64,000 nucleotides of DNA from a virus. The position numbers and the translations under genes are program-made. This document shows positions 74-51,926 of this stretch, in pieces. The DNA is taken from positions 1 through 64,000 of IMG/VR virus record IMGVR_UViG_3300021420_000001; one strand, given 5' to 3'. The notes beneath the pieces were generated by a model. That model made no database searches. It had not been told where the DNA came from and worked only from the letters and a program-made list of their open reading frames with translations. The stretch's first letter is position 1; each line of letters starts with the position of its first letter.

Positions 74-547
74 ATGCCTTTCCCTACCCGTGACGATATC
101 ATCTACCAATCCACCAAGACCTACGTCCATGCGCAGGGCCTTTCCTGCGCATTCCGACAATGGCGGGCTGATTCACACTGTAGCTTCATCCACGGCTACT
201 CGCTTGAGGTCAAACTCACCTTCTCTGCTGGTATCTTAGACGAGCGGAACTGGGTCGTCGACTTCGGGGGACTCAAGCCTCTCAAAGGGTGGTTGGAAGA
301 AACCTTCGACCACACAACGCTCGTTGCAATTGATGATCCTGATCTTAAATGGTTCAATTCCTTACAAAGGGAACGGATAATTCAATTACGTATTGTCCCA
401 TCGACGGGATGTGAATCTTTTGCACGTATGATATTTGAGTACGCGGAGCAGTGGTTGATCGATGCCGGGTTCTCTCCGCGTTGTCAACTCGAGTCGGTCG
501 AAGTCCGGGAGCATCCAACCAATTCGGCAATCTGTAGGAGAAAGTGA
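74..547 (+). CDS. queD: QueD-like 6-carboxy-tetrahydropterin synthase
   Basis: Likely converts 7,8-dihydroneopterin triphosphate to 6-carboxy-5,6,7,8-tetrahydropterin, the second step to preQ0. About 157 residues, the usual QueD length. Visible family features are the SHCSFIHGYS stretch with the catalytic-type Cys, a WVVDFGGLK segment, FDHTTL, and a C-terminal VEVREHPTNSA segment. Compared with classical QueD, the first zinc-ligand region (normally AAH) reads CAF and the HGH motif reads HGY, so metal binding may use other residues. The frame is open further left to an ATG at 17, but position 74 follows the stop of the preceding frame and begins where QueD proteins normally start. The stop overlaps the queC start. 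First gene of the deazaguanine operon in this window. Confidence 0.75.
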   Translation: MPFPTRDDIIYQSTKTYVHAQGLSCAFRQWRADSHCSFIHGYSLEVKLTFSAGILDERNWVVDFGGLKPLKGWLEETFDHTTLVAIDDPDLKWFNSLQRERIIQLRIVPSTGCESFARMIFEYAEQWLIDAGFSPRCQLESVEVREHPTNSAICRRK

Positions 548-1260
548 TGAAGAACGCCAAAGCTTTTGTTTTGCTTTCCGGAGGCGTAGACAGCACAACC
601 TGTCTTTATCTGGCTCGGCAGCAATTCGATGGGAATGTTGAGGGAATTAGTATCCATTATGGACAACGCCACGCCAAGGAAATTGAATACGCCAAAAAAT
701 CCTGTCGGCGGCTTACCATCAAACACACAACCCTCGACATTTCCGGCGTCATTCCCAAAACCATGCTAACCGACAAGACTGCCGAGGTTCCGAACATTTC
801 TTACGCCGAGATCAAAGGGGTCTCACCAACGTACGTTCCGTTCAGGAATGGGTTGCTGTTATCCGCGATTACATCCCATGTTGCCGGTCGATATCAAGCC
901 GAAGTTGATCCTGATACGGGGAAGCCTGAGTGGGGTATCTATTTCGGCGCCCACGCAGAAGACGCTCAAAATTGGGCATACCCGGACTGCGCTCCTGAGT
1001 GGATTGGTGCGATGGCAAATGCCATTTTCATCGGGACGTACCAGACCATCCGCCTGCATACACCCCTCGAGTGGCTCAAAAAAGAAGAGATTGTTTACCT
1101 AGGCCAAAGCTTGGGTGTGGACTGGTCCCTTACGTGGTCATGTTATAAAGGGGAGGAGCTTCACTGTGGAAGTTGCCCCACCTGCCGCGCTCGACGTGAT
1201 GGCTTCCGAAAAGCCATGGTAACCGACCCGACCAAATACGCTAAAGCTATCGCCGCTTGA
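547..1260 (+). CDS. queC: QueC 7-cyano-7-deazaguanine synthase
   Basis: ATP-dependent conversion of 7-carboxy-7-deazaguanine to preQ0 (7-cyano-7-deazaguanine). About 237 residues. The N-terminus carries the PP-loop ATP-binding motif SGGVDS. The C-terminal part has the four-cysteine zinc site (SCYKGEELHCGSCPTC, then RARRDGF). The ATG at 547 overlaps the queD stop as TGATG and has AGGAG six bases upstream; a GTG at 544 is a weaker alternative. No fused glutamine amidotransferase domain is present, so the expected product is preQ0 rather than a G+ precursor. QueE, which makes the substrate, is not in the window and must lie upstream or come from the host. Confidence 0.93.
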   Translation: MKNAKAFVLLSGGVDSTTCLYLARQQFDGNVEGISIHYGQRHAKEIEYAKKSCRRLTIKHTTLDISGVIPKTMLTDKTAEVPNISYAEIKGVSPTYVPFRNGLLLSAITSHVAGRYQAEVDPDTGKPEWGIYFGAHAEDAQNWAYPDCAPEWIGAMANAIFIGTYQTIRLHTPLEWLKKEEIVYLGQSLGVDWSLTWSCYKGEELHCGSCPTCRARRDGFRKAMVTDPTKYAKAIAA

Positions 1261-1299
1261 TTATCAACGAGAGGACCCCCACAAGGGGAGGAGAGAAGT

Positions 1300-1992
1300 A
1301 TGTCAAAGTCTGATACAGCAGAAGCCGAAACGACTATCGAAGAGATACTTTCCGCTGCGACCGAGATTACGCAGGAGAAGGGTGAAGATCGTCAAGCCTA
1401 TCTGACCCGGCTCCATGACGCCGCGACCGAGCTCGACGAAAGCGGTTGGGATGATCTCGGCGAACCCGCCCAACTCTGGGTCAATAAGGCGACCAAGGCC
1501 GAACAGGCCAACAAGGAGATTCCTGAATTCCCCGACGTCGAGCCTACCGACGACGACGAGGAGGAAGAAGTTGAAGAGGAAGCCGCCGAGGAAGAGGCCG
1601 ATACTGAAAGTGATTCCGAAGAAAGCAACGAGGAGGACGATGTGACCGATACTGATACCGAGACCGAGAAGCCCCCGAAGAAGAAGCCTGCGCCCAAGGC
1701 GGCCAAGCCCGCCGCCAAGAAGGCCGCTGCACCCAAGGCTGCGGCCAAAGAGAAACCCGCCAAGAAGGCCGTCAAGGCCGATGGCGGTTCCAAGGCGACC
1801 AGCGCCCGCCGCCTGCTCAAGCAGTTCGTCGTCAAGAAGCCTTCGATCACGGTCGACGATCTGATGGAACGCGCCAAGAAGGCGGGCCACAAGCTCTCTG
1901 ATATCTATATTTCTTCCCTTCGTTCGGACACGCGTGACACTCTCAAGGTGGCGAAAGAGTGTGGTGTCGTTCTGGAAGATTTGGATCTCTAA
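1300..1992 (+). CDS. Acidic/basic low-complexity protein with a C-terminal helical domain
   Basis: Unrecognised 230-residue protein inside the deazaguanine operon. Residues about 1-75 look like an alpha-helical domain, about 75-125 are almost all Asp/Glu, about 125-165 are Lys/Ala/Pro repeats like histone tails, and about 165-230 form a helix-rich domain (RRLLKQF, ITVDDLMERAKKAGHKL) resembling a winged-helix fold. A strong GGGGAGGAG ribosome site precedes the ATG. Its stop overlaps the folE ATG. The charge pattern suggests a DNA- or DNA-protein-binding role. A link to DNA modification is only suggested by position. Confidence 0.75.
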   Translation: MSKSDTAEAETTIEEILSAATEITQEKGEDRQAYLTRLHDAATELDESGWDDLGEPAQLWVNKATKAEQANKEIPEFPDVEPTDDDEEEEVEEEAAEEEADTESDSEESNEEDDVTDTDTETEKPPKKKPAPKAAKPAAKKAAAPKAAAKEKPAKKAVKADGGSKATSARRLLKQFVVKKPSITVDDLMERAKKAGHKLSDIYISSLRSDTRDTLKVAKECGVVLEDLDL

Positions 1993-2591
1993 TGGGTGGG
2001 AGAATTCTCCCCTTCGTTTCCGACGAAGAACTGATCCAGGAACTTCTCCACCGACTCGGTGAAGATGTCGACCGCGAAGGTCTGCGAGAGACGCCGAAAC
2101 GCGTCATCGCAGCCTGGCGGTTCTGGACGTCGGGAAATAGCATGGACCCGGCCTCTGTCCTTAAGTGTTTTGAGGATGGTTCCGAAGGTTATGATGAGCT
2201 CGTATTTCAAGCGGGATTGCCTCTGCACTCCGTTTGTGAGCATCACATGGCGCCAATATCTGGTATGTGCCATGTGGCCTACGTTCCTAATGGCCGTATT
2301 GTTGGTCTCTCGAAACTGAGTCGGCTCGTCGATATTTTTGCACGTCGATTGACAGTGCAAGAGCGTATGTGTAATCAGATTGCAGACGCCCTCATGGAAC
2401 ATCTTACACCCAAAGGGGTCGGTGTTGTTATCCAGGCTCGACACCAATGCATGGAAAGTAGGGGTATCCAGAAAGTCGGGACTGTAACCGTAACTTCAGC
2501 GTTACGCGGCTGCGTCAAGAATGAGCCTGAGTGCCGCGCTGAATTTATGTCCCTCGTAACCACAAGTATGCAAGGTGTTCGGACGTTATGA
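1992..2591 (+). CDS. folE: GTP cyclohydrolase I
   Basis: Makes 7,8-dihydroneopterin triphosphate from GTP, the entry step for preQ0 and folate. About 199 residues. Family marks in order: GLRETPKRV near the N-terminus, the zinc site CEHH, the GLSK and RRLTVQER segments, and QCMESRGIQK with the third zinc Cys. All three zinc ligands (Cys, His, Cys) are kept. The start at 1992 overlaps the previous TAA; an upstream in-frame ATG at 1959 would lie inside the preceding gene. In this operon it probably feeds preQ0 rather than folate synthesis. Confidence 0.95.
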   Translation: MGGRILPFVSDEELIQELLHRLGEDVDREGLRETPKRVIAAWRFWTSGNSMDPASVLKCFEDGSEGYDELVFQAGLPLHSVCEHHMAPISGMCHVAYVPNGRIVGLSKLSRLVDIFARRLTVQERMCNQIADALMEHLTPKGVGVVIQARHQCMESRGIQKVGTVTVTSALRGCVKNEPECRAEFMSLVTTSMQGVRTL

Positions 2592-3712
2592 TCATCGCCG
2601 ATCCCATGCCAACCTCGTTAATGTGCGACAGCGGCGCTTTTTCGGCGTGGAGGCAAAACAATCCTATCGACCTGAAGGAATATATCAAATACATCAAGCG
2701 TAATGAAAAGTTCCTGACCAGCTACGTTGCGCTTGATACAATTCCAGGCAAATCGGGTAAGATCGACAAGTCGGCCGAAGCCCTCGAGTTCTCGGCACGA
2801 GAATCCTTCAAGAACCTCCAGATCATGCGGGACAAGGGTCTGTCCCCCATCCCTGTCTTCCACCAAGGGGAGCAATTCAAATGGCTGGAGAAGCTCCTGG
2901 ACGCGGGAGAACCCTATATCGGCATCTCGCCCTACCTGCGGGCCCATCGCAATGATATCCGGCGCTGGCTGGACGATTGCTTCTCGCTTGTGACAGATTC
3001 AAAAGGCAGGCCCCTGGTCAAGACACATGGGTTCGGTGTGACATCAACCCTGCTCTGTACTCAATTCCCGTGGTTTTCTACAGATTCTACTTCATGGGCT
3101 ACTGCTGCCGGTTACGGTAATTTTGACGTGCCTTCTTACAGCAATGGAAAATTTGACTACACGACCCAACCCATCAACTTCCACATTACCAACCGGGACG
3201 AACTCGGACTTGGGGGACCAAAATCCTTTGACGCCCTACAGGAACAAGAGCGTGAAGCTGTCCTCCGTTTCTTTGATCTAGTCGGCGTCACTGTCACCGA
3301 GGTCCGCAACAGCCCGACCCACCGTTGGCATGTACGTATTCGTTACTACCAAGAGTTGGAAAAGCATTGCACCTGCTGGACGTTCCAACGTCGGAGTAAT
3401 AAATTTCTGCTCAACACGCTTTCCCAGCGTCAATCCGAATTGAAGCCTTGGAAGACCATGACGTTGATCTTTTCATCGACAGCGCGTTCGATGCAACATC
3501 AACGCATCCTCAATCTGTTCAAGGTCAAGAATAGGCTTTTGTCGTATTACCAGCTCAAAGATTTACCTGATGAGACCGTCGAATACTATTCCAAGACCGG
3601 TCTGTTGCATAAGGACGAAGGACGTCCCGACCGCTCCAACTGGTCAGAAACTTACGCCATACGTCGGCGTCTTGCGCTTGCCAATCGTTATCCCGATACG
3701 AAAGCATCCTAA
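2588..3712 (+). CDS. dpdA: TGT-like DNA deazaguanine transglycosylase (DpdA type)
   Basis: Predicted to exchange guanine in DNA for a 7-deazaguanine base (preQ0 or derivative), which protects phage DNA from host restriction. It belongs to the tRNA-guanine transglycosylase TIM-barrel superfamily: the N-terminal CDSGAFSAW matches the TGT substrate-binding DSGGF region, YVALDTIPG and FHQGEQFKWLEKLL follow, and FSTDSTSW holds the Asp expected to act as nucleophile, a motif typical of phage DpdA proteins. About 374 residues, close to TGT in length, but the classical TGT zinc motif is not evident. Start ATG overlaps the folE stop (ATGA). Co-location with queC, queD and folE is the strongest support. 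Confidence 0.85.
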   Translation: MIIADPMPTSLMCDSGAFSAWRQNNPIDLKEYIKYIKRNEKFLTSYVALDTIPGKSGKIDKSAEALEFSARESFKNLQIMRDKGLSPIPVFHQGEQFKWLEKLLDAGEPYIGISPYLRAHRNDIRRWLDDCFSLVTDSKGRPLVKTHGFGVTSTLLCTQFPWFSTDSTSWATAAGYGNFDVPSYSNGKFDYTTQPINFHITNRDELGLGGPKSFDALQEQEREAVLRFFDLVGVTVTEVRNSPTHRWHVRIRYYQELEKHCTCWTFQRRSNKFLLNTLSQRQSELKPWKTMTLIFSSTARSMQHQRILNLFKVKNRLLSYYQLKDLPDETVEYYSKTGLLHKDEGRPDRSNWSETYAIRRRLALANRYPDTKAS

Positions 3713-3889
3713 ATGCGCCACTCGGAAATTGATAAGCGCGCCAAGCGCTACGCGCCAAAGCAATGTCTGTCTGATTACGGACATAATGTACATAAAGACG
3801 CCCCGACTAAAGAGGAAAAGGAAGCCAAGCGTGAAAAGGACCGACTTGCTATCGCGACTAGGCGTGGTCGCACCCGCCCTCGCGGATAA
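3713..3889 (+). CDS. Small basic protein, unknown
   Basis: 58 codons, starting directly after the dpdA stop (TAA then ATG). Rich in Lys, Arg and Glu, with a likely helix (TKEEKEAKREKDRLA) and an Arg-rich end. It overlaps the GTG start of the sliding clamp gene by 59 bases, so the two may be translationally coupled. No family recognised. Confidence 0.5.
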   Translation: MRHSEIDKRAKRYAPKQCLSDYGHNVHKDAPTKEEKEAKREKDRLAIATRRGRTRPRG

Positions 3890-4874
3890 TTCACTCATCC
3901 CCGCACTACAACACTTCTGGTTCCTGGGTGACCAGATCATGGCATTCAATGATCGCATTGCGATCAGTACGCCCCTGAAGACTGAATTCAAGGGCGCTGT
4001 TCCAGGCAAGACCCTGATCGATCTCCTCAAGGCCAGTCAGGCCAAGGAGGTCGAACTCATTGCCGAGAACAACAACCTCCTGATCAAGGCGGCTTCCTCC
4101 AAGTTCCGGTTGGGCATCCTGCCTACGGACTCGTTCCTATTCGAAATGCCGGAACTGGCGAAAGACCATCAGACCTTCCCGGAAGATTTCTACGCCGCAA
4201 TCGACAGTTGTATGCGATCGGTCAGTGCCGATACTTCCATTCCCGATCAATTGGGTATTACGCTGATCCCGGAAGATACAACCCTTCATCTTTTCTCGAC
4301 CAACAATTCGACGATCTCGACCGCCAAGATCAAACTCAAGGCGGCACCCAAATTCAAGCGCGTCATCCTGTCCGAACCTTTCTGTAAGCAGCTACTGAAT
4401 CTGAACGAGAAAGGCGGCCGACTCGAGATCAACTCCGAGTACGCTTTATTTGTCCAGGGAGAGACGTCGCTGTTCGGACGTCTGATCGAGAGCGGTAATC
4501 CCCTTGACTTCCTGGACATCTTCAAGCACCACACGCCGCCCGACTACAAGAAGCGGTTGATTGCCATTCCCACCAAGCTCCAACTCATTCTGGAACGCGC
4601 AATCATCATTACGGATACGACGGCGGCCGATCGCAAACCTACCTTGATCTCGGTCAAGGAACGGGGCCGTATGTCTTTTGGATCGAAATCAGACCGAGGG
4701 GAAGTTTTCGATTTTATGGGCATTGAGGAACAACACCCCGAGGTTCAGGTCCGCATCGAACCCAAGCTGATCAAGCTTGGTTATGGCGCCTTTGACAAAA
4801 TGCTAGTGACCAAGTCGGGTCTGATGATGGTCAAAGACAACAAAATATATCTCGTAGGGACGACAGGGGCATAG
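3831..4874 (+). CDS. DNA polymerase sliding clamp (beta-like)
   Basis: Processivity ring for the phage polymerase. About 347 residues, near the usual beta-clamp length of 360. It opens with a helix (TDLLSRLGVVAPAL), then the beta-type FNDRIAISTPL strand and a GKTLIDLLKA helix, with repeated clamp-like alternation of strands and short helices; it ends LVTKSGLMMVKDNKIYLVGT. The GTG start at 3831 has AGGA eight bases upstream; a longer frame to 3570 would lie inside dpdA and encodes unlikely sequence. It stands next to the polymerase, clamp loader and SSB genes. Assignment is from overall pattern, not a single signature motif. Confidence 0.75.
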   Translation: MKRTDLLSRLGVVAPALADNSLIPALQHFWFLGDQIMAFNDRIAISTPLKTEFKGAVPGKTLIDLLKASQAKEVELIAENNNLLIKAASSKFRLGILPTDSFLFEMPELAKDHQTFPEDFYAAIDSCMRSVSADTSIPDQLGITLIPEDTTLHLFSTNNSTISTAKIKLKAAPKFKRVILSEPFCKQLLNLNEKGGRLEINSEYALFVQGETSLFGRLIESGNPLDFLDIFKHHTPPDYKKRLIAIPTKLQLILERAIIITDTTAADRKPTLISVKERGRMSFGSKSDRGEVFDFMGIEEQHPEVQVRIEPKLIKLGYGAFDKMLVTKSGLMMVKDNKIYLVGTTGA

Positions 4875-5286: not shown

Positions 5287-7698
5287 ATGAAACCAACGGG
5301 GGCTAGTAAGCCCCTAATTTATTGTACAGGTGAGGCGCCGGGTGCTGACGAGGATTTGAAAGGCATTCAATTTGTCGGAAAGGCGGGCCGCGTTTTACGC
5401 TTCCGAATTCCCGAAAGGTTCAATTCCTTAATTCGTTGGAACAATGTTGTACGCACAAGGCCGCCAGGTAACCGTAATCCCACTGAAGTTGAATTGGAAG
5501 CCTGCCGTCCAAGCGTAGTACGTGATATCGAAGAAACCCAACCTCGCGCCATATTCGGTTTCGGGAATTTTCCTCTGCTCTGGGCCCTGAACCAAACCGG
5601 TATCACGCGATGGACCGGACGCAAAATACCCATCCAAGTCGGTGATCATAGCGCTTGGTTCTTCCCTTTCCTGCATCCATCTTATGTTCTACGGTCTCGT
5701 AAATTCCAACCCTCTGATACAACCCAATACGGATCAGACGAAGAATTTGTCTTTGCCTGTGATCTAGCGCGAGCCTTTGATCAAGTCGAGAACCTCCCCG
5801 AACCCGTCGTTCACTCGCGTGATGATGCCTACGCAGATGTAGAATGGGTCACAGGCCATAATGGTTCCGAAGACATCAATCAGATTAGGCGAACTCTGGA
5901 ACAGGCCAACGAATGTAAGATTGTCGGATTGGACTACGAGACCCCTTGTCTCAGACCCTACGCCGAAAATGCCAAGATATTGACGACCGCGGTTTCAACC
6001 AAGTTTGGGACGCTCGCCTTCCCACTTGATCACCCTAAAGCAGGATGGTCAGACAAGGAACGGAGCGTCGTCCATGAGTTATTCCAGACCTTTCTCTATC
6101 AATGCCCGGCCCGCAAACTCGTGCACGGCCTTGCCTTCGAGATGGAATGGTCCGCCTTCTTTTACGGGTCGGAAGTCCTACGAGCCGGCCTCTGGGGTGA
6201 CAGTCAATCCCAGGCTTATTTTCTCGACACCCGTCCCGGATGTCATAGTCTCGACTTCATTACACTCCAACACTTTGGACTTCACCTCAAAGAGTTAAGC
6301 AACATCGATCGGACCAAGACCGAGCAATATCCGCTCGAAGAAATTCTTCCCTACAACGGATTGGATAGTAAATATCATAGACTGAACTATATCGAGCAGG
6401 CCAAACGTATCCGAGATGAGGGACTATCGGAAGTCTACGAACATCAATTACGGCGCATCCCGACGCTTGTCCTGACGCAGCTCAAAGGCGTCCCTGTCGA
6501 CCAGAACGCCGTCGAAGGCTTTTTCAAGAAGTATACGAAAAAGCTTGGCACCATCGAAGAAAAAATCTTTGCCCTCAAATGCGTCGCCACATTCAAGAAA
6601 CAAAAAGGAAAGGCGTTCCGTCCCGGTTCCAATCCTGACGTCCTGCATATGATCACCCGTATTCTTGGGCATAAGGCCAAAAATGTCGATGAAGAAGCCC
6701 TCTCGAAGATTGATCATCCCTTCTGTAAGTTGATCCTGGATTTCCGCACCACGGCCAAGATGATCTCGACGTATATCAAGCCTTACCAGGTCGGATCGCC
6801 TGATCTATGGCCTGATGGTCTGATTCATCCAATCATTAGCACGACAAAAGTAAGGACATGGCGCACCGCAAGCCAAGCCCCAAATGCGCAAAACCAGCCT
6901 AAACATGGCAAAGAGAAGGAGCTTCGTGCACAGGTCTCGGGAGGCAGCGATATCAAGGTCGTATCATTTGATTTTGCCGGTATCCAGGCCCGAAACGTTG
7001 CCATGGAATCCAAGGACAAGGCCTTGGTCAAAGCCTTTTGGAACCGGTATGATATTCACAAGGATTGGGCAGAGCGCCTGATCCGTATCTACCCACAATG
7101 GGTAACTGAGGGTGTAAAGGCACTCAAGGACAAAGACATATTCAAGGCTTACCGACAACGCGCCAAGAACGAATTTGTCTTTGCCTCATTCTTTGGGGCA
7201 CAACCCCCGAAACTATCGCGAGCATTACGCGTACCGGAACCTATCGCGTTGAAACTCTCGAAGCAGTTCTGGGATGAGTTTCCTGATATCAAGGGCTGGC
7301 ATGAATTTCAACGCGATTTCTACTACGAGAATGGATACATAACTGGGTTATCGGGGTTCCGTCGTTATGCTCCCGTATCGCCAACCGAAATGATAAATAG
7401 TCCTATACAAGCGGATGAATCAATTATTGTCCTTGACGCAATGGAACGTCTGTCTGAATTAGAGGACGATAGGTTCCAAGCCAACTTGGAAGTGCATGAC
7501 GATTTGACGTTTCTGTGGCCCAAAAAAGAGATCGAACGTAATTCAGAGGTAGTCCTCCGCGAAATGCTCCGGGTCACCTTCGATTGGGTAATAGTTCCCC
7601 TTGAGGTGGAAATGTCTGTAGGAGATAACTGGAGTGATATGCACGAAATCGGTAAGTTTGAATCAATCAAATCAGGCGGGTTCCGGGAGATCAAATAA
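5287..7698 (+). CDS. Uracil-DNA glycosylase / 3'-5' exonuclease / family A DNA polymerase fusion
   Basis: Replicative polymerase of 803 residues. Residues about 8-150 are a family 4-type uracil-DNA glycosylase domain (GEAPGADEDLKGIQFVGKAG, TRPPGNRNP, HPSYVLR) lacking the usual iron-sulfur cysteines. Residues about 210-370 form a DnaQ-type exonuclease (LDYE, VHGLAFEMEW, YNGLDSKYHRLNY), with Glu where the second Asp is normal. Residues about 470-790 are the polymerase: motif A DFAGIQARNVA (Gln in place of the usual Glu), motif B RQRAKNEFVFASFFGA, motif C EVHDDLTF (HDD instead of HDE). The ATG at 5287 lacks a clear ribosome site and sits just before a hairpin. Followed by an overlapping small gene. 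Confidence 0.9.
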   Translation: MKPTGASKPLIYCTGEAPGADEDLKGIQFVGKAGRVLRFRIPERFNSLIRWNNVVRTRPPGNRNPTEVELEACRPSVVRDIEETQPRAIFGFGNFPLLWALNQTGITRWTGRKIPIQVGDHSAWFFPFLHPSYVLRSRKFQPSDTTQYGSDEEFVFACDLARAFDQVENLPEPVVHSRDDAYADVEWVTGHNGSEDINQIRRTLEQANECKIVGLDYETPCLRPYAENAKILTTAVSTKFGTLAFPLDHPKAGWSDKERSVVHELFQTFLYQCPARKLVHGLAFEMEWSAFFYGSEVLRAGLWGDSQSQAYFLDTRPGCHSLDFITLQHFGLHLKELSNIDRTKTEQYPLEEILPYNGLDSKYHRLNYIEQAKRIRDEGLSEVYEHQLRRIPTLVLTQLKGVPVDQNAVEGFFKKYTKKLGTIEEKIFALKCVATFKKQKGKAFRPGSNPDVLHMITRILGHKAKNVDEEALSKIDHPFCKLILDFRTTAKMISTYIKPYQVGSPDLWPDGLIHPIISTTKVRTWRTASQAPNAQNQPKHGKEKELRAQVSGGSDIKVVSFDFAGIQARNVAMESKDKALVKAFWNRYDIHKDWAERLIRIYPQWVTEGVKALKDKDIFKAYRQRAKNEFVFASFFGAQPPKLSRALRVPEPIALKLSKQFWDEFPDIKGWHEFQRDFYYENGYITGLSGFRRYAPVSPTEMINSPIQADESIIVLDAMERLSELEDDRFQANLEVHDDLTFLWPKKEIERNSEVVLREMLRVTFDWVIVPLEVEMSVGDNWSDMHEIGKFESIKSGGFREIK

Positions 7699-8317: not shown

Positions 8318-9253
8318 ATGACAGAGGCTTTGCACACCCTGTATCGCCCGCAAACATTCGATCAAGTCGTCGGACAGACTGCGGTTATTACTTCTCTCAA
8401 AAATGTGATCAAACGAAGAGGCGCACAGGCTTACTTATTCTGCGGACCAGCAGGTACGGGCAAAACTACGCTAGCGCGGATCGTTGCATCAGAACTCGGC
8501 TGCGCACAAAATTCCATCATGGAGATCGATGCCGCTACATTCACTGGCATCGATGCAATGCGTCAGGTACAGGAGACGGTCCAGTACAAACCTTTTGGCA
8601 AGTCTGAGCACCGCGCTGTTCTAATCGACGAAATCCACAGGCTTAGCCGAAACGCATTTGACAGCTTGCTCAAGATAGTCGAGGAACCTCCTGCTCATGT
8701 AACATGGCTGTTTGCTACCACAGAAGTCAACAAAGTTCCAAAAACCATCCAGACCCGGTGCGCCGCCTTTACTCTCAAACCCGTTAACGACAAAGACCTG
8801 TTGGGTCTGATCGAAGAGGTCTCGGTCAGCGAGAAGATCAAGCTCAGTGATGGGATGGCGGATATTATCGTCCGCGAATCTGGGGGTTCGCCGCGCCAGG
8901 CGCTTGTCAATCTGGCACTCTGCCGTGATCTGAAGACCCGGCAGGAGGCAGCGCAGGTTCTACGTTCGGCCCTCTCATCCGACCCCGTCCACGAACTCTG
9001 TCAGTATGTATGTAATGGCGGTAGCTGGCAAAAGGCGATGGCAATCATAGCTAAGCTCGAAGATGAAAATCCTGAAGGTGTTCGCTTGGTGATTGTCAAT
9101 TATGTGGGCAAGGCTTTGCAAAGTGCGAAATCGGATGACGCCGCCTGTCGGTTCCTGAGTATACTCGAGGCCTTCTCAGCACCGTATAACAACTCGGAGA
9201 ACCTTTCTCCGTTGCTCTTGTCCTTGGGTCGCGTTCTGTTTGCACAATCGTAA
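8318..9253 (+). CDS. Clamp-loader AAA+ ATPase (DnaX / gp44-like)
   Basis: Loads the sliding clamp on primed DNA. 311 residues. Walker A GPAGTGKTT near residue 45, Walker B VLIDEIH near 105, sensor 1 FATTE, an arginine-finger TRC near 148, and a helical lid domain; the C-terminal collar is short. Begins LYRPQTFDQVVGQ as in DnaX. No separate gp62-like small subunit is recognised nearby, so the loader may be a homo-oligomer or use the small unknown neighbours. Confidence 0.92.
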   Translation: MTEALHTLYRPQTFDQVVGQTAVITSLKNVIKRRGAQAYLFCGPAGTGKTTLARIVASELGCAQNSIMEIDAATFTGIDAMRQVQETVQYKPFGKSEHRAVLIDEIHRLSRNAFDSLLKIVEEPPAHVTWLFATTEVNKVPKTIQTRCAAFTLKPVNDKDLLGLIEEVSVSEKIKLSDGMADIIVRESGGSPRQALVNLALCRDLKTRQEAAQVLRSALSSDPVHELCQYVCNGGSWQKAMAIIAKLEDENPEGVRLVIVNYVGKALQSAKSDDAACRFLSILEAFSAPYNNSENLSPLLLSLGRVLFAQS

Positions 9254-10025: not shown

Positions 10026-10196
10026 ATGGACATTTTCATTCTCCTCTTGCTAATCGCCATCCTTCTCATTCCCTATGGGTATGTTCTTGTTCGAGGCATG
10101 AGCCGCGCTTACTTCAAGACCAAATGGGAACACCACCAACGTATTATGAAAGACCTTGATCCCAACCCCGAACAGGAGCCCCGTGATGGCGTTTAA
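10026..10196 (+). CDS. Small single-span membrane protein
   Basis: 56 residues. One N-terminal membrane helix (DIFILLLLIAILLIPYGYVLV) followed by a charged cytoplasmic-type tail. The end overlaps the SSB ATG at 10186. Function unknown. Confidence 0.55.
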   Translation: MDIFILLLLIAILLIPYGYVLVRGMSRAYFKTKWEHHQRIMKDLDPNPEQEPRDGV

Positions 10197-11400
10197 GCCT
10201 GCAGCCCGTACCAGTTCATCAAAACCCGTTGCCAAGAAGCCTTCCGGTTTTGTCTATCATCCGCGATCCGCCGAGGCGATCAAGGCGCGCGCTGAACGGA
10301 CCGGCGGACGTTTCGATTCTCCGTTCAAGGATAATACCGATACGTTCCGCCCCAAGGTCGGGGACAACCTCATTCGTATTCTGCCGCCGACCTGGGAACC
10401 CCACGACCATTATGGTTTCCAGATTTGGGTGCATCGGCGCATCGGCCCCGACTCGTCGACCTACCTCTGCCCGCGCGAGATGTTGAACAAGAAATGTCCC
10501 GTCTGTGAGGCGGAAAAGGAATCGCGTGACGCCGGCGAGACCGATGAGGCCAAGGCCTTGGCGCCGGCCGAACAGTTCGTCTGCTGGATTGTCGATCGCG
10601 ATGACGACAACCCAATCGCCAAGATTTATCCTCTGTCATGGACCCAGGACCGCGATCTCGCAGCCCTTTGCCACAACCCACGTAAGGGCCAGGTCCTTCT
10701 GATCGACCACCCCGACAAGGGCTATGACATCATCATCAAGCGTCATGGCCAGGGACTCAATACCAAGTATCAATTCGCCGTCGATCGCGAAAAGACGCCA
10801 ATCTCGGATGACGGCAAGGTCCAGCAGGAGATCCTGGACTTCATTACCGAGAATCCGGTTCCGACCATGCTCAAGTATTACTCTTACGAGTATCTTGAGA
10901 ACGTCCTGTCGGGTGGTGCGGAAGAGGCTGATCCCGAGCTTGACGAGACCGACACAGAAGCCGCCGAAGAGGCTGAAGCCGAATCCGACAACGAAGAGGA
11001 GGAAGCCCAGACCGCCGCCCGTGGACGTAAGCGACCGCGCGCCGAGCCCGAGGAAGAAGAGGTCGAAGAGGAAGTTGCGGAGGACGAAGAGGGGGTAGTT
11101 GAGGCGGAGGAGGAGGAGGAAGTTGAAGAGGAACCCACTCCGCGCCGGGTTGCCGCGAAACGTCCGGTTGCCACTGCCAAACGCCCTGCGCGCCGTCCTG
11201 AACCCGAGCCGGAAGAAGAGGAAGAGGAAACCGTCGAAGAAACCGACGAGGAAGAATATGATCCTGAGACGGGTGAGATCATAGAGGAGGAAGAGGTTGC
11301 TCCGCGTCGGCCCGTTCGACCTGCTGCCCGGCCCGTGGTCAGAACGGGAAAACCCGCAGCCCGCCCCGGCGTGACCCGGGTTGTCCGGCACCCTCGGTAG
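10186..11400 (+). CDS. Single-stranded DNA-binding protein, gp32-like, with a very long charged tail
   Basis: 404 residues. Residues about 55-240 resemble T4 gp32-type SSBs: VGDNLIRILPP, then a zinc-ribbon CPREMLNKKCPVCE, then DDDNPIAKIYPLSW and a C-terminal core helix. Residues about 245-404 are low-complexity, mainly Glu/Asp with interspersed Arg/Lys/Pro blocks, ending Arg-rich (RVVRHPR). The usual gp32 acidic tail is short and ends acidic, so the length and basic end are unusual. The internal ATG at 10186, overlapping the previous gene, fits better than the frame's first ATG at 10156. Confidence 0.85.
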   Translation: MAFKPAARTSSSKPVAKKPSGFVYHPRSAEAIKARAERTGGRFDSPFKDNTDTFRPKVGDNLIRILPPTWEPHDHYGFQIWVHRRIGPDSSTYLCPREMLNKKCPVCEAEKESRDAGETDEAKALAPAEQFVCWIVDRDDDNPIAKIYPLSWTQDRDLAALCHNPRKGQVLLIDHPDKGYDIIIKRHGQGLNTKYQFAVDREKTPISDDGKVQQEILDFITENPVPTMLKYYSYEYLENVLSGGAEEADPELDETDTEAAEEAEAESDNEEEEAQTAARGRKRPRAEPEEEEVEEEVAEDEEGVVEAEEEEEVEEEPTPRRVAAKRPVATAKRPARRPEPEPEEEEEETVEETDEEEYDPETGEIIEEEEVAPRRPVRPAARPVVRTGKPAARPGVTRVVRHPR

Positions 11401-41241: not shown

Positions 41242-43674
41242 CTAAGCCGCTACCGGCTCCTCCAAAAGGTTTCGCTTGAGCCTAATGTTAGTCATTTGCT
41301 TGATCTGTTCTTCTGCTGCCGCACCGTAGCGATGACGAATCATACCTAGGTAGACGGGAGATGTGAAATACACCTGGAAAGCCATATCGCGGAAGGCAAG
41401 GACCTGTTTGGCCGTAAGACTCTGCGTACTCAACGGAAGACAATCTTCTGAATGTTGTGCGTAGCCGCTCCAATTCTTGGGCAGCTCAATCCCAGTCTTG
41501 ACGGCTTCCTCGTATAGCTTGGAGCCAGGATATGCCATTGCCGAGTAGAAGTTGGCGTACTCGGTGTTCAGTTCCATTGCCAGCCTCAACGTCGCCTGCA
41601 TAGAAGGATAGTCATCATCAGGAAGCCCGAAAATATAATTCCCAATGACATTAATACCGGCCCGTTGAATATTCCGTACAACATCCACAATGTCATCATT
41701 CTTGAGTGCCTTCTGGGCTCCATCGCGGACGTGCTTGGAACCGGACTCGATCCCGAGTGCTAGCCAGCGGAAGCCCGCCTGCCTAAGCATTTCCAATGTA
41801 TGGGGCTTGACGGTATCGATCCGCGCGTACGCCCACACATTGATCTCTTTGCCGAGTCCGGTCGCGATCAGCTGCTTGGCAATTGCCGTATAGTGACGTT
41901 CATTGAGCACGAACATCTCATCGACGATCTTGAAGGTCTTGACACCGTAACGGGCATTAAGCATGACCATCTCGTTGACGACTTCGGTCGAGTCGCGCAT
42001 CCGGTAAACGTTATTACCGAAAGGAGCCGATATGCAACAGAAACTACAATTTTTGACAAGAACGTTGTTCGCGTAAAACCATCCCGTAGCTGGAACCGTC
42101 AGACAGTAGACATCATGTACACCCTTCAGGGGCGTAACCGACACCACCCGATGATTGATCAGCTTCCCATCTTCCTGTTTATTTTTCCATGGATTGAAAT
42201 TACGGCGGCCTGCAAAATCCTTTGCATGCTTTGCCTCTACGCTTCGATAAGCCCGACCAGTCTCATGATCTGTCCACCAGCGACGTCTCACTTCTTCACG
42301 TTTTTTAGCTGCTATACGCAACTTCGCAATATAAGCAGGATCGGCTGCACGCTTCTGAGCAGCCTTACGATAATTTTCAATGGATTTTGCAGAACGTGTT
42401 AATCCTGTTAAGCCTTTTGTAATTTTAGCGCGCCATTCGGGGGTCATGTTTTTAGCGGGATTATTTGTTCGCATCCGTTCCCCAATTTCAGGATGCTGAG
42501 AAAAATGCTCTAAGGCTGATGCGTAATACTCAAGGTTATTGGGATGATCATTTGTAGAATCGTGATCTACGTGATGTACATGCTCTGTCTTTTTAAGTCG
42601 ACGTTTAATCAAATATTCCATGATCATCCGAGAACGGACCTGCCGCCCACGTCCACTCCAATTAACATATATACGTTCTACGTAAGAATTATACTCAAAT
42701 CGAAGGGCACGAACATGCGCACCCTCAACAAGATTTTGAGCTTCGCATGCCCATTGTTTTCCCTTAGCTTTTGTTTGCCCCCACTTGAACTGAAGGAACT
42801 TGTGATCAGGGGTACAATCAATATGGGTTCCATCATCAAAACGAACCCGAACGAGTTTCGACTTTCCATACTTTCGAATATGGATAGAGTCCGTAATGTA
42901 TGCTCGCTTTGATTCAGGATCAAAGGTGTATATAGGAACTCCCTTGTCACCAAAACGTTTTACGAGTTCTCGTATTGGAATATTCCCATAAATCGTATTT
43001 ACAGGAGTATCTCCTGCTAAACATTTAAAAGGGCAATTTAACGTGGTGTGAATAGAAGCGTACGGTTGGCGAGATGATCCGTCCAAAACCTGCCAATTGT
43101 GACTTCGGTACTTGTTCATTGGGAGCAAGTCCCAGGCGTTACCGTGCAAGTGCTTCATATCAATTAGAGGGGCGGACGGGTTGAGATAAACATTATCACC
43201 GTCACGCCAAACGAGGCCAGGGATGTCGTCTTGGTCTTGTCCCGTAAGCAAGCCTAAGATGGTAACCGGACCCTCACCAACACAGGCATAGTCAATCGAT
43301 TCCTCCTGCATCGTTCGCTGGGGAAGGGCTGAGACATGTCCGCCAACCATGATGATCGGAGATTCTACAGCTAGCCGTTTGATTGCTTTAGAAATAGCGC
43401 CAGCTCCTGGCATTTGTTGCGTAGAAGCTGATGGCTGATGCCCATAAGCTGCGATGCAAACTAGACGAGCCCGTGCCGCTAAGATGCAGGCTGCGACCTC
43501 TGAAGGAGAGAAACCTTCGGCTTCAGCGTCCAAAATCTTGACTTCAAACCCACGGTCACGAATATAGCCGGCGATCAGGCGTGCCCACATAGGGGGTTCA
43601 CAGGCGACGAGGTTCTGATCCAGGTCGCCGTAAGCAGTTGTGCTCGGCGGATTGACGATCAACAAATCAAGCAT
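41242..43674 (-). CDS. B12-binding-domain radical SAM enzyme containing an intein
   Basis: 810 residues before splicing, about 485 after. Residues 1-150 resemble a cobalamin-binding Rossmann domain (LLIVNPPSTTAYGDL, GFEVKILDAEAEGF). The radical SAM motif is split: CPFK at 214-217 lies before the intein and CSFC at 543-546 after it, so splicing restores CPFKCSFC (CX3CX2C). C-terminal SAM barrel follows (FRWLALGIESGSKHVRDGAQK, NVIGNYIFGLPDDDYPSM). Likely methylates or rearranges a sugar or lipid-like substrate; exact reaction unknown. Downstream end of the glycan island. Confidence 0.88.
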   Translation of the reverse strand: MLDLLIVNPPSTTAYGDLDQNLVACEPPMWARLIAGYIRDRGFEVKILDAEAEGFSPSEVAACILAARARLVCIAAYGHQPSASTQQMPGAGAISKAIKRLAVESPIIMVGGHVSALPQRTMQEESIDYACVGEGPVTILGLLTGQDQDDIPGLVWRDGDNVYLNPSAPLIDMKHLHGNAWDLLPMNKYRSHNWQVLDGSSRQPYASIHTTLNCPFKCLAGDTPVNTIYGNIPIRELVKRFGDKGVPIYTFDPESKRAYITDSIHIRKYGKSKLVRVRFDDGTHIDCTPDHKFLQFKWGQTKAKGKQWACEAQNLVEGAHVRALRFEYNSYVERIYVNWSGRGRQVRSRMIMEYLIKRRLKKTEHVHHVDHDSTNDHPNNLEYYASALEHFSQHPEIGERMRTNNPAKNMTPEWRAKITKGLTGLTRSAKSIENYRKAAQKRAADPAYIAKLRIAAKKREEVRRRWWTDHETGRAYRSVEAKHAKDFAGRRNFNPWKNKQEDGKLINHRVVSVTPLKGVHDVYCLTVPATGWFYANNVLVKNCSFCCISAPFGNNVYRMRDSTEVVNEMVMLNARYGVKTFKIVDEMFVLNERHYTAIAKQLIATGLGKEINVWAYARIDTVKPHTLEMLRQAGFRWLALGIESGSKHVRDGAQKALKNDDIVDVVRNIQRAGINVIGNYIFGLPDDDYPSMQATLRLAMELNTEYANFYSAMAYPGSKLYEEAVKTGIELPKNWSGYAQHSEDCLPLSTQSLTAKQVLAFRDMAFQVYFTSPVYLGMIRHRYGAAAEEQIKQMTNIRLKRNLLEEPVAA
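42049..43023 (-). other. Intein with HNH endonuclease, in the radical SAM gene
   Basis: Residues 218-542 of the host protein (325). Block A CLAGDTPVNT with Cys1, block B CTPDHKFLQF, and the C-terminal block ending YANNVLVKN before Cys+1; the usual penultimate His is Lys. The insert has an HNH-type segment (HVHHVDHDSTNDHPNNLEYY near 366-385) with NUMOD-like basic helices after it, so it can spread. Removal should be needed to assemble the iron-sulfur cluster. Confidence 0.88.
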
Positions 43675-43799: not shown

Positions 43800-44272
43800 G
43801 GATGCTTTTCCGGGGGCCAACGATTGCCACTTTTAATTGAACAAATATGTGCGTAATGAACTCCAAATCGACGGCTGAGCGCCATCATACCTTCTTTACT
43901 TGCCCTAATATAATCAACAATTTCCCACGTCAGTTTGGCTCTAGCATTCTGCTCGCCCGGTTGCGACTTAGCAGCGCCGTTTGTACGACCCTTACGAGCA
44001 CAATCAGACATATTATCCAAGTGCGTTCCTAAAAATAAATGACTTGGTCGAACACAACTTGGATTGTCACAGGTATGACAAACTTCTAATCCTTTTGGGA
44101 TAGCGCCAAAGTGCAATTCCCAACAAAAGCGATGAGCTTTCTTTTGTACGCCAGCAATCTTTATCGCCCCATAATCACCGTTCTTAGACAGATCCCAAAA
44201 CCAACATTTACGGGTCTTAATAACATGCCGCCAAAACCGTTGAACGGGAGTTTCGTCTGGCCAACGAGACAT
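43796..44272 (-). CDS. HNH homing endonuclease
   Basis: 158 residues. HNH_3 pattern AHRFCWELHFGAIPKGLEVCHTCDN followed by PSCVRPSHLFLGTHLDNMSDCARKGR; the C-terminal helix part fits a NUMOD/helix-turn-helix recognition region (ALSRRFGVHYAHICSIKSG). ATG at 44272 overlaps the epimerase stop; a start at 44308 lies inside it. Sits between two copies of the epimerase 3' end, a typical mobile position. Confidence 0.88.
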   Translation of the reverse strand: MSRWPDETPVQRFWRHVIKTRKCWFWDLSKNGDYGAIKIAGVQKKAHRFCWELHFGAIPKGLEVCHTCDNPSCVRPSHLFLGTHLDNMSDCARKGRTNGAAKSQPGEQNARAKLTWEIVDYIRASKEGMMALSRRFGVHYAHICSIKSGNRWPPEKHP

Positions 44273-45204
44273 TAGATATTTCCGTGAACCGTATTGCGAA
44301 GCATACAATAACCCTTAATCAATTCCTCAATTCCTTTGTCCAAAGTCCATTTTGGCCTCCACCCAGTAGCTTCAATTTTAGCATTTGAAACTACATAATT
44401 CCTTTTATCCAGGTCTTCTCCAATAGGAGATTCAAGGAAGACGAAGTTGGGCACGTGAGTCTTAATTCTTTCGCATAATTCGCGCTTAGACAGGTTTGCG
44501 TCGGATAAACCCACATTGTAAATCTGACCCTTCATCTTACCGAAACGATAGAGCCCTTGCAGGAATGCAGCAGCGGCATCTCTAATGTGGATGTAGTTGC
44601 GTTTGAAATCCGCCTCGAAAAGTACTACCGTCCTATCGTGTACGGCACGATATACAAAATCGTTAACCAGCAAATCGATACGCATACGGGGAGACATACC
44701 GAAGACAGTCGCGAGTCGGAAACTGATACTGTTCTCGCGTTCCATCACAATCTTTTCGGCATCGACCTTGGTCTGACCGTAAAGACTGATGGGCTTGAGT
44801 GGACTCTCCTCGGTACATTCCTTACCCGGTTCCCCGATACCATAACCGCTATTCGAGATCGGAATCAAGACAATTTGTTCTTTGCTCATATGCGAGATTG
44901 CAGTCTGGACGGCACCGACATTGGTACTCGTAGCCGCCAATTGATCTCGATCACAGAGTGGCGCACCGACAAGAGCGGCTAGTGGAATGAAGACGTCGTT
45001 GACTTTTAGCTCTGACTCCAGAATGCGATAGTCTCTTGCATCCCCATTGATAACTTCAAAATGGGGGCTGGAACAAAGGGCGTTTAGCGGGGCTTGGCCA
45101 AACAGAAAGTTGTCAATGACGGTAACCCGATGCCCGTCAGCAAGAAGGGCTGGAACGAGGATACTTCCGAGATATCCCGCTCCCCCGGAAACCAGTACCC
45201 TCAT
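44272..45204 (-). CDS. NAD-dependent sugar epimerase/dehydratase
   Basis: 310 residues, extended SDR family. Glycine-rich NAD motif GGAGYLGSILVP near residue 10, LYGQTKVDAE (YxxxK) near 155, and the typical C-terminal NVGLSDANLSKRELCERI and WRPKWTLDKGIEELI. Acts on a nucleotide sugar, substrate unknown. Its 3' end is more AT-rich than the rest and may have been replaced when the HNH gene arrived. Confidence 0.88.
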   Translation of the reverse strand: MRVLVSGGAGYLGSILVPALLADGHRVTVIDNFLFGQAPLNALCSSPHFEVINGDARDYRILESELKVNDVFIPLAALVGAPLCDRDQLAATSTNVGAVQTAISHMSKEQIVLIPISNSGYGIGEPGKECTEESPLKPISLYGQTKVDAEKIVMERENSISFRLATVFGMSPRMRIDLLVNDFVYRAVHDRTVVLFEADFKRNYIHIRDAAAAFLQGLYRFGKMKGQIYNVGLSDANLSKRELCERIKTHVPNFVFLESPIGEDLDKRNYVVSNAKIEATGWRPKWTLDKGIEELIKGYCMLRNTVHGNI

Positions 45205-45479
45205 CCAGAAACTCCCAAGAACTCTTCCTTTATGATTGAAGGTTCACAATGTCGACGCCTAATATCAAATCCGCGGCGCTTTGTTACTGTGACGAGAAAT
45301 TCTCGTGAACCAATATCATCACTAAACAAAAGCTCGTAAGGAGTCTCTGGAATAAATTCTTTTGTCTTATCGACATCTCGTATATCTAAGGGAAGCCACG
45401 CAGCTTTCTCCGTCTCAAAAAGTAGACAAGCCCGGACCCCATTATCATCATAAGCAAAAATGCTGATGGTACGCTTCAT
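45201..45479 (-). CDS. Small hypothetical protein
   Basis: 92 residues from an ATG with GAGGG upstream; the track frame to 45629 lies in dcd. Beta-rich (TISIFAYDDNGVRACLLFETEKAAWLPLDI begins the protein), likely a small regulatory or binding protein. ATGA overlap with the epimerase start. Unknown. Confidence 0.55.
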   Translation of the reverse strand: MKRTISIFAYDDNGVRACLLFETEKAAWLPLDIRDVDKTKEFIPETPYELLFSDDIGSREFLVTVTKRRGFDIRRRHCEPSIIKEEFLGVSG

Positions 45480-45523
45480 GCTACAACCCTCTTTATGCCA
45501 GCCCCGCCACTCATCAGAATACG

Positions 45524-45982
45524 TTATCGGGCACGCTGCGGTCCTTGATTCTGATCTTGGTATTTTCCGTTGTATGGAATTTCCGTTGGCCGATCTAACT
45601 GATGAAAGATAACTTGGGCAATTGCCCATCCAGGCTCCATTTTCAGTAGCTCAAGATTATGATATGTAATTTCAAGCGTGAGGTATCCCCGCCAACCCGG
45701 CTCCAACACGGTATTTTGAACCAAAAGTCCACGACGCGCCAAAGAAGATTTATCATGCACTACACCAACAATGTTATCTGGCAAATTGAAACGTTCAAGA
45801 GCTGATGCTAAAACAAAACAACCATTATACAATGTAATTTGTTCCGCTAAAGTTATATCTACGCCACAAGCACTAAGTCCTATAGAATTACCAAAACCAT
45901 CTTTCGACGATTCGTTAAGCGGACTTACTAAACCATTCCCACTTACACTAAACTGTCTGATTGTTTGGGCGCTAAGAACCAA
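45524..45982 (-). CDS. dcd: dCTP deaminase
   Basis: Deaminates dCTP to dUTP for thymidylate supply. 152 residues, slightly short. Motifs: GVDITLAEQI, ASALERFNLPDNIVGVVHDKSSLARRGL (HDKSSLARRG is the catalytic stretch with the Ser-Arg), LEPGWRGYLTLEI, and QNQGPQRAR. Starts at TTG one base past the upstream stop. Raising dUTP next to a polymerase with a uracil glycosylase domain is noteworthy. Confidence 0.9.
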   Translation of the reverse strand: MVLSAQTIRQFSVSGNGLVSPLNESSKDGFGNSIGLSACGVDITLAEQITLYNGCFVLASALERFNLPDNIVGVVHDKSSLARRGLLVQNTVLEPGWRGYLTLEITYHNLELLKMEPGWAIAQVIFHQLDRPTEIPYNGKYQDQNQGPQRAR

Positions 45983-45983
45983 G

Positions 45984-47135
45984 TTACACCAATACCTTCT
46001 TCATGATCTCGACCGCCCGACCAATCTGCTCCTCTATTGGGTACGGGGCGCAGCCGATGAAAAGTCCACAATCGTGGATACGATCCGCATTCGGCGTTTC
46101 GGCCTGAGACCGCCAGGGAGCCCCATAGGCGTGCTTGAGGAACGAGCCCCCCGTCGGTAAGCGCGAGTCAATCCCCGCGTCAGCGAGCTCCGCAACGAGT
46201 CTGGACCGCATTTCCGACGAAGAAACGGTGAGGGGGAGCCCAAACGGGCTGGGATCCATGCTCCGGCTGACCGGTAGTTTGATCGGGAGGTCTTTCGTCA
46301 AGTCTCGGAACAGGGCTAGATTACGTTGGCGGGCGACGATGAAGCCCTTGAGCTTCTTCAACTGCTCCCGCGCGATAGCGGCATGCATTTCCAAGGGACG
46401 GAGGTTGTATCCGAAGTGGGTAAAGTTGTAGCTGTCCTCGAAGGTCTTCGGTGGATCGACGTCGCGGGTCCAACCATGGGCCCGGAGAATGCGACAGAGC
46501 CTAGCGCACTCAGCATCATTTGTAAGTACGAGACCTCCTTCTACAGCACTGATCTGATGCGAATGAAAGAAGGAGAACGAATTCATTAGGCCAAGGGTGC
46601 CACAGAGATCGTTGCCGTAGTAGGCACCCAGGCTTTCGCAGTTGTCTTCGATGAAGTAGCCACCGTGGGACTCGATTGCGACCTTCAGGAAGTTCAGTGG
46701 CGCGGGGTTGCCAAGAATTGAACAACCAACCACCAACTGAGAGCCAGTAACATCAGGTAGCCCAGAACACCAAGTATTATCGCAGTCCTCAATTTTGAGG
46801 CGAAGTCCCGCGTTAACAAGCGGAGCATACGTGGTACTCCAAGCTAGGGCCGGGACGATAACCTGATCCCCACGCTTGAGGGGGTGTTCCTTTTTGGCGA
46901 AGAGTGCCGCAACCATCAACAGATTGGCAGATGATCCGCTATTGCACATAATGCCGTACTTCATCTTGTGAAAGCCGGCGAACTCCTCTTCGAACTGCTC
47001 GACCTCTGGACCCATTGTAAAGCGGTCAGAGGCGATAACCCGATGAATCGCAGTCTTCTCGCGCTCGTCCCAGGACGAAAATGCGGTCGGATACCAAAAT
47101 CCCTTATTCCAAGGCTTGACTACGACGTCGTGCAC
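45984..47135 (-). CDS. PLP-dependent sugar 3-dehydratase of ColD/RfbH type
   Basis: 383 residues, DegT/DnrJ fold (EFAGFHKMKYGIMCNSGSSANLLM at about 52-75, FSFFHSHQISAVEGG near 190). At the place of the PLP Lys there is His (SHQIS), as in ColD and RfbH/E1 which remove a C3 hydroxyl from 4-keto-sugars instead of transferring an amino group. So the product is probably a 3,6-dideoxy-4-keto nucleotide sugar. GTG start with AGAGGA upstream. Flanked by dcd and the TPP enzyme pair. Confidence 0.82.
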   Translation of the reverse strand: MHDVVVKPWNKGFWYPTAFSSWDEREKTAIHRVIASDRFTMGPEVEQFEEEFAGFHKMKYGIMCNSGSSANLLMVAALFAKKEHPLKRGDQVIVPALAWSTTYAPLVNAGLRLKIEDCDNTWCSGLPDVTGSQLVVGCSILGNPAPLNFLKVAIESHGGYFIEDNCESLGAYYGNDLCGTLGLMNSFSFFHSHQISAVEGGLVLTNDAECARLCRILRAHGWTRDVDPPKTFEDSYNFTHFGYNLRPLEMHAAIAREQLKKLKGFIVARQRNLALFRDLTKDLPIKLPVSRSMDPSPFGLPLTVSSSEMRSRLVAELADAGIDSRLPTGGSFLKHAYGAPWRSQAETPNADRIHDCGLFIGCAPYPIEEQIGRAVEIMKKVLV

Positions 47136-47377
47136 GATGTCCTCTTACGTTTACGTTTACTATACGGTGCGGATTGACGCCGGGCTCTCTTTGGTCGAAT
47201 CAAAGCCTGAACCTTGGCTCGGGCTTCGTTCACACAAGGAATGCAAAAATAATGCGTAACCCGATTTTTGTCGCGTCGAACCCCGGCCATAGTCTTTTGG
47301 TGAATTGGACACCAGGGCACGATACGTCCTGAATTAAGTGGTGGGATTTCTGTAGGCTCCCACCCGGCCTTGGTCAT
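47120..47377 (-). CDS. Small basic cysteine-containing protein
   Basis: 85 residues. CPIHQKTM and HYFCIPCVNEAR give a possible zinc site, and the C-terminus is Lys/Arg-rich (PYSKRKRKRTS). Overlaps the dehydratase start by 16 bases. Unknown. The gap 47378-47517 upstream holds no clear gene. Confidence 0.5.
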   Translation of the reverse strand: MTKAGWEPTEIPPLNSGRIVPWCPIHQKTMAGVRRDKNRVTHYFCIPCVNEARAKVQALIRPKRARRQSAPYSKRKRKRTSCTTS

Positions 47378-47517
47378 CTCTAAATCCCCTTAGCTGGCAG
47401 GGTCGGCTATGACCATCACCTTAGCCGCCGTGAAGGGGTAGTCGGTATTAGGCCGTAAATCCGGGTTTCATTTCTAGGCTGGTGCCTCCTCTGGTTGAGG
47501 GTGGGAAGGTCTGCAAA

Positions 47518-48081
47518 TCAACCATACTGAGAAAGTTGCTCGATGCACAACGTAGAGCCCTCTCGATTTAACGCATCTCGATACAAAGGCATGACATCCT
47601 GCGCATGGTCGATATTGACGACCACTATGGTCTGTAACATAGCGCGGAATGCTGCAGAAAAGTCTCCCAAATGCTGGTGCCCAGGATCGAGAGGTCTGTC
47701 CGTTGCGATTGCGGTACGGATGATGACTTTGGGACGATAGGCTGAGTAGCGTGGGATGGCATCTAGGTGAAGTACAAGTTGACTCATTGCCAATAGCAAA
47801 AAGTTCACGCGCGGATAGATACAAATGGGCAGGTCACCATTCAGGGAGGCCCCAATTGCAGCACCAAGTTGCATATCCTCAGCGACGGGCCACTCGATTC
47901 GCCTATGCATTGGAACATTACGCAAAGCGTTGAACATCGCAGTACCCGGAAATTGTACCGCCTGACCCAGAAAGACAGAACGCGGATGCTGAGACAGCAT
48001 CTCCATTGCTTTACAGAGTTCAGAGAAGTATGCCGTCTCCGGCTGCTGCGTAGGGGCGACGCGGACGCTTGGCACTGACAA
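47518..48081 (-). CDS. TPP-enzyme subunit (E1 beta / pyrimidine-binding domain)
   Basis: 187 residues, only the pyrimidine-binding domain of transketolase or E1 beta. RIEWPVAEDMQLGAAIGAS contains the Glu that activates TPP; a Glu-His-Gly type active-site region lies around GHQHLGDF. The usual C-terminal domain is missing. TTG start with AGGA seven bases upstream. Pairs with the gene at 48091. Confidence 0.78.
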   Translation of the reverse strand: MSVPSVRVAPTQQPETAYFSELCKAMEMLSQHPRSVFLGQAVQFPGTAMFNALRNVPMHRRIEWPVAEDMQLGAAIGASLNGDLPICIYPRVNFLLLAMSQLVLHLDAIPRYSAYRPKVIIRTAIATDRPLDPGHQHLGDFSAAFRAMLQTIVVVNIDHAQDVMPLYRDALNREGSTLCIEQLSQYG

Positions 48082-48090
48082 GGGTTGATC

Positions 48091-48681: not shown

Positions 48682-48844
48682 AAACCACCAATCCAGTAAT
48701 AACCGACAAAACCAAACCCCAGATAAAACCCGTTCTAAGTCCCTCTATGTAACCCGATAGCCTAGCCGTAGAACGTAGATTACAAGGACAATGTTCCCAA
48801 TTTGGATAAGGGCAACGACCGCCAACAACGCATTCTTTCTGCAT
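48668..48844 (-). CDS. Small Cys-rich membrane protein
   Basis: 58 codons starting right after the upstream stop (TGA ATG) and overlapping the E1 alpha start by 14 bases. Cys-rich N-terminus (CVVGGRCPYPNWEHCPCN) then one membrane helix (FIWGLVLSVITGLVVYAF). Function unknown. Confidence 0.5.
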   Translation of the reverse strand: MQKECVVGGRCPYPNWEHCPCNLRSTARLSGYIEGLRTGFIWGLVLSVITGLVVYAFR

Positions 48845-50860: not shown

Positions 50861-50862
50861 TT

Positions 50863-51354: not shown

Positions 51355-51360
51355 AGTCGA

Positions 51361-51925: not shown

Positions 51926-51926
51926 T

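Follow-up and report, generated by a model that had tools for sequence, protein, structure and literature searches.

A putative circularly permuted DpdA transglycosylase in a viral deazaguanine operon, and a charged protein that accompanies the replication genes

We analyzed positions 1–64000 (the window) of a 111,480-base virus record and find that its deazaguanine operon encodes a DpdA-type transglycosylase which, by sequence comparison, is a circular permutation: the N-terminal beta-alpha-beta-alpha unit of canonical DpdA is absent and its homologue lies at the C-terminus. This rearranged enzyme is the most unusual feature of the locus and was missed by a preliminary description of the same DNA. 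The locus as a whole is very probably best explained by a dPreQ1-type pathway, a permuted DpdA barrel and a charged protein that belongs separately to the replication module. A search of full-text literature, mostly open-access, for DpdA or tRNA-guanine transglycosylase (TGT) with a circular permutation gave no relevant paper, and the titles and abstract openings of DpdA papers gave no sign of a permuted arrangement; it appears undescribed, which falls short of proof of novelty.

The operon comprises queD, queC, a gene for a charged protein, folE and dpdA, in the order and at the positions reported in the preliminary description (Table 1), and the gene families support its reading as a deazaguanine DNA-modification pathway with a DpdA transglycosylase. 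Overlapping starts, noted there, are seen at the queD/queC (TGATG), charged gene/folE (TAATG) and folE/dpdA (ATGA) junctions; queC and the charged gene are separated by a 39-base gap. QueC is the plain short form with no glutamine amidotransferase domain. A more upstream start for DpdA is ruled out, as just 15 in-frame codons precede it up to a stop, all within folE. Both record ends carry an identical 127-base terminal repeat, so that the genome is probably complete at about 111.35 kb and the sequence to the left of position 1 is found at the right record end. Elsewhere in the window, an N-terminal domain of the uracil-DNA-glycosylase superfamily shares the reading frame of DNA polymerase A (PF03167, 1.2e-15), an intein splicing domain (41242–43674; PF14890, 3.8e-12) splits a B12-binding radical SAM gene, and the minus strand at 44272–59219 holds what by eye is a sugar-nucleotide and glycosyltransferase-like cluster (epimerase-like, DegT aminotransferase-like).

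Table 1. Features of the operon, the adjoining replication genes and pathway genes outside the window. Positions are those of the window unless marked as record positions.
Feature	Position	Strand	Evidence or remark
queD (6-carboxytetrahydropterin synthase homologue)	74..547	+	Pfam PTPS 2.2e-20; phrog_2389 3.2e-44
queC	547..1260	+	Pfam QueC 2.7e-55; TIGR00364 156 bits, above its cut-off; 237 aa
Charged protein	1300..1992	+	Replication-module gene, phrog_38529-related; no Pfam/PHROG family of note
folE (GTP cyclohydrolase I)	1992..2591	+	Pfam 1e-66; NF006825 226 bits
dpdA, 9g/phrog_887 kind, putatively circularly permuted	2588..3712	+	phrog_887 1.2e-42 (residues 9-252); alignments; AlphaFold2
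Moved beta-alpha-beta-alpha unit of DpdA, residues about 288-340	3449..3607	+	hhalign 96.2%, E=2.6e-9; secondary structure match
Basic C-terminal helix behind moved unit, about residues 350-367	3635..3688	+	Present in permuted relatives too
Sliding clamp (DNA polymerase processivity factor)	3840..4874, start codon unsettled	+	phrog_947 6e-30
DNA polymerase A	5287..7698	+	Pfam and PHROG matches
Clamp loader (gamma/tau-like), end of conserved replication block	8318..9253	+	Profile similarity to related clamp loaders
queF (QueF-II homologue)	record 90514-91014	minus	TIGR03139 136.7 bits, curated cut-off 86.9
Second DpdA, canonical order	record 99417-100166		PF23859 2e-37

The window DpdA has 13 residues ahead of its DSG motif compared with 62-63 in five 9g-type relatives, and it extends long beyond the second aspartate motif, about 103 residues past which the 9g-type proteins stop. 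The C-terminal extension is common to diverse relatives, and its core (xxIxFAT...RLLSYYxL) resembles canonical N-termini (MKIYLAG...RLLSYYHI). Profile comparison with hhalign of 21 canonical N-termini and 26 tails, the latter chosen by motif pattern, gave 96.2% with E=2.6e-9 and a score of 43.3, against a maximum of 13.7 in 100 column shuffles and 10.2 for the reversed profile. When whole permuted proteins were tiled into ten blocks, only two extension blocks scored (42.9 and 27.7), with the next best at 15.1. The tail had no match to an N-terminal profile of only the five 9g-type DpdAs, and a shallow profile–profile comparison of 5 against 3 sequences likewise left tail and N-terminus unmatched, so that deeper profiles are required for the match. 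Of 102 DpdA relatives, 33 carry the unit at the C-terminus, 25 carry it at the N-terminus and none has it at both ends. The permuted class requires 3 changes on a 90-row tree compared with a mean of 22 for shuffled labels, and its deepest forks have moderate support (82/78). An origin of the tail by sequencing frameshift is ruled out by an arrangement common to 33 proteins from many contigs. The linear order of canonical 9g-type DpdA is not found in the window protein, which, since its unit lies near the C-terminus, we class as a variant of the 9g type. Searches with the window DpdA in Pfam and in PDB sequences gave no match, as did a single-protein pattern search of viral contigs, for which alignments were required.

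The predicted catalytic residues of DpdA are retained. The aspartates of the DSG and PW.S.DS motifs are kept, as is the conserved histidine of KxHGFG, with D14, D166 and H147 invariant across 35 rows; we take Asp14 (2627..2629, + strand) to be, by motif, the equivalent of the TGT general acid/base, and Asp166 (3083..3085, + strand) is presumably that of the TGT nucleophile. This invariance across the permuted class bears on an unlikely alternative, in which tRNA is the substrate of the permuted DpdA, or this enzyme is inactive, and only the second, canonical-order DpdA modifies DNA. One genome with two divergent DpdAs is in keeping with such a division of labor, as is the distribution of the second type, which among 20 related records gave one weak match and was otherwise not found. 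Against it, besides the invariant residues, some relatives have the permuted form only within an operon that is otherwise complete, and the permuted dpdA is coupled to folE. The second DpdA is 51% identical to its counterpart in Sinorhizobium phage phiLM21 and falls with the PF23859 DpdAs of Mycobacterium and Sinorhizobium phages, unlike the window protein.

Structure prediction suggests how a permuted DpdA could complete its fold. The AlphaFold2 model of the window DpdA (pLDDT 91, pTM 0.87; residues 281-340 at 92-97) has six barrel-type strands in the core, as far as residue 167. Two more lie in the extension (292-296 and 315-319), each followed by helices, which brings the barrel-type strands to eight. 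In the AlphaFold2 model of a canonical relative, L100, the chain opens with strand 2-6 and a helix, followed by strand 22-25 and two helices ahead of the DSG strand, and this E-H-E-H-H series recurs in the same order in the C-terminal extension of the window protein. The chain of the window DpdA would thus begin just ahead of the catalytic DSG loop, and its TGT-like barrel would be closed by the C-terminal beta-alpha-beta-alpha unit, a closure we infer from the model. Foldseek matched the window model to phage queuine-transferase-like models in BFVD with E down to 2e-14; against the PDB neither the window nor the L100 model found anything under E=0.001, and TGT (4lbu) came only at rank 24 for the permuted model.

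Free-standing homologues of the same unit are frequent near dpdA. Of the 44 DpdAs outside the C-fused and N-fused groups, 23 have the beta-alpha-beta-alpha segment in a small ORF of its own no more than 2.5 kb away, and this ORF often overlaps the dpdA end. A scan of 23,819 frames returned 123 unit matches on the dpdA strand, fused DpdA frames included, with none on the opposite strand and none in shuffled proteins. Free-standing homologues of 50-70 residues are found at L107:6193-6348, L116:6444-6635, L114:5272-5610 and other places, up to five ORFs per locus match the unit, and eight such small ORFs scanned against Pfam had no match above cut-off. Tandem DpdA-type genes, two or three in number, occur at L060:8920-12215 and L070:7922-10032, the middle one at L060 without a DSG motif. 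Two proteins inside the permuted tree branch, L055 and L072, are unfused: in the former, an ORF that overlaps dpdA downstream encodes the unit, and the downstream match of the latter is weak. Their position fits an origin of the permuted form by fusion of a downstream ORF, or later breakage in the unfused cases.

These small proteins also lend something to a second, quite improbable reading, which takes the C-terminal unit for an accessory addition, a small protein of the free-standing family joined to DpdA, and leaves the barrel incomplete or closed otherwise. Separate copies adjoin 9 dpdA genes whose N-terminal unit is retained and may therefore have functions of their own, and barrel closure in the window protein is inferred only. 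An accessory domain sits poorly, however, with a unit that is found at one end or the other and never at both, with the one-to-one correspondence of its elements to the canonical order, and with the high model confidence of the tail.

Pathway genes outside the window change the predicted base. The preliminary description had placed queE, if present, just left of position 1, and a candidate is indeed found at the right record end (95591-96397), with QueE models as its best NCBIfam matches (4.5e-21), though under NCBI cut-offs. QueE, QueF and the second DpdA are all encoded outside the window, toward the right record end. QueF scores above its curated cut-off, has its catalytic motif SSLCPVTSQPD and NADPH motif ESKSLKLY both intact, and matches a solved QueF (4f8b) at 2.4e-30. 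Of 20 related records, 7 give genuine QueF matches (E<1e-28); the lesser hits of that search, as in the studied genome, are read as FolE, which shares the fold of QueF. A SpoT-type HD_4 domain and an RlaP-type nucleotidyltransferase are encoded beside queF (record 90956-92706; L003:6956-8706). The earlier prediction of plain dPreQ0 rested on the absence of QueF from the window only, and it fails. In an experimental survey, a minimal deazaguanine gene set led to dPreQ0 in phage DNA, and Streptococcus phage Dp-1, with an added QueF-type gene, was measured to carry dPreQ1 (PMC6884629). The studied genome encodes the full dPreQ1-type set (folE, queD, queE, queC and dpdA with QueF), and its gene content favors dPreQ1, perhaps accompanied by some dPreQ0, over dPreQ0 alone; QueF could also serve a different purpose. 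In the proposed pathway, FolE, QueD, QueE and QueC would convert GTP to preQ0, QueF would probably reduce the pathway's product further by converting preQ0 to preQ1, and one or both of the two different DpdA enzymes would exchange the base into the phage's own DNA, which would then be protected from restriction. Both the base made and catalysis by DpdA are predicted here from sequence.

Parts of the locus resemble known arrangements. The Queuovirinae-type module of Escherichia phages VogelGryff, CAjan and 9g and Vibrio phage VpKK5 likewise has queE, queC, queD, folE and dpdA close upstream of a sliding clamp and DNA polymerase A, and its DpdA belongs to the same family as the window protein at 27-35% identity. 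In contrast to that module, the studied genome has queE, queF and a second dpdA elsewhere, a charged gene interrupts the set, and the DpdA appears permuted. Edwardsiella phage vB_EpM_ZHS shares primase, a sigma-like gene, charged protein, queC, folE, dpdA, clamp and polA in identical order and has the DpdA closest to that of the window in the phage collection (35%), but its DpdA frame continues at the N-terminus (start L005:5890) and is without the C-terminal unit. The Mardecavirus block of Vibrio phages MAR10 and SSP002 shares primase, sigma-like gene (phrog_35491), charged protein (phrog_38529), clamp, polA and clamp loader; it differs in that QueC and DpdA were not found and in that the linker of the charged protein consists of repeated small domains rather than a K/A/P tail.

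The charged protein has the build first described for it, with an acidic block, a K/A/P-rich basic block and a helical end. Across 45 collected members, twelve further loci having been drawn from viral contigs, a conserved N-terminal domain and a conserved C-terminal helical domain flank an acidic and K/A/P-rich linker that varies freely. Searches with the whole protein against annotated phages gave no match, and neither did a single-protein pattern search of viral contigs, where alignments were again required; its C-terminal domain gave chance-level matches only in phages. A match in Pseudoalteromonas KB12-38 was dropped because it adjoins a tail gene. No histone or HU family matched in Pfam or PHROG, the likeness being one of composition only. 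No direct match of the window protein to phrog_38529 was reported, and the link runs through ZHS_68, the protein of like build beside queC in the Edwardsiella phage, which groups with that Mardecavirus family. The genome encodes a second protein of charged-tail build, a gp32-like single-strand-binding protein (10156–11400; PF08804, 1.3e-7) whose very long tail is alternately acidic and basic. Each of L006, L007, L008 and L010 encodes, upstream of queE, two or three small proteins that end in a common helical domain of about 45 residues (RPKAGTKTGRVWEIAD...TQYGRWRKYHGL); some have K/A/P-rich or acidic tails and are possibly a counterpart of the charged protein.

Judged by its surroundings, the charged gene goes with the replication block rather than with the pathway. 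Primase, sigma-like gene, charged gene, clamp and polymerase keep this order with or without surrounding deazaguanine genes. In a set of 49 loci that hold primase and clamp, 36 of the 37 that have the sigma-like gene also have the charged gene, compared with 1 of the 12 that do not. We assign the name sigma-like by reading of the sequence, Pfam support being weak. Many related phages bear out the expected association with dpdA. The charged gene occurs just as well where searches found neither DpdA nor QueC, which makes a role in the pathway unlikely. It is very unlikely that the operon is of the usual dPreQ0 type and the charged protein one more member of its pathway. In favor of that reading, the gene does lie between queC and folE, and dpdA is present at 31 of the 37 loci holding charged gene, primase and clamp. 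Against it, QueF is encoded, the charged gene stands at the equivalent place in Mardecaviruses MAR10 and VP06 and in metagenome records L020, L021 and L030 (possibly fragments), in all of which QueC and DpdA were not found, and most dpdA loci without the sigma-like gene are also without the charged gene. From its build and position, our best guess at the role of the charged protein is an accessory that binds nucleic acid and serves the primase, clamp and polymerase set.

The locus illustrates that an operon window alone can mispredict the modified base, here with QueF lying about 20 kb away across the record ends, and that profiles of fixed order can miss a permuted DpdA, as Pfam did. More tentatively, the first two beta-alpha units of DpdA may be an exchangeable module that is fused at the front, fused at the rear or made as one or several separate 50-70-residue proteins; DpdA would then often be a split enzyme, and interchangeable small subunits could set its choice of substrate or sequence. 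The canonical, split-looking and permuted forms, found in comparable operons, offer a ready series for testing natural enzyme rearrangement.
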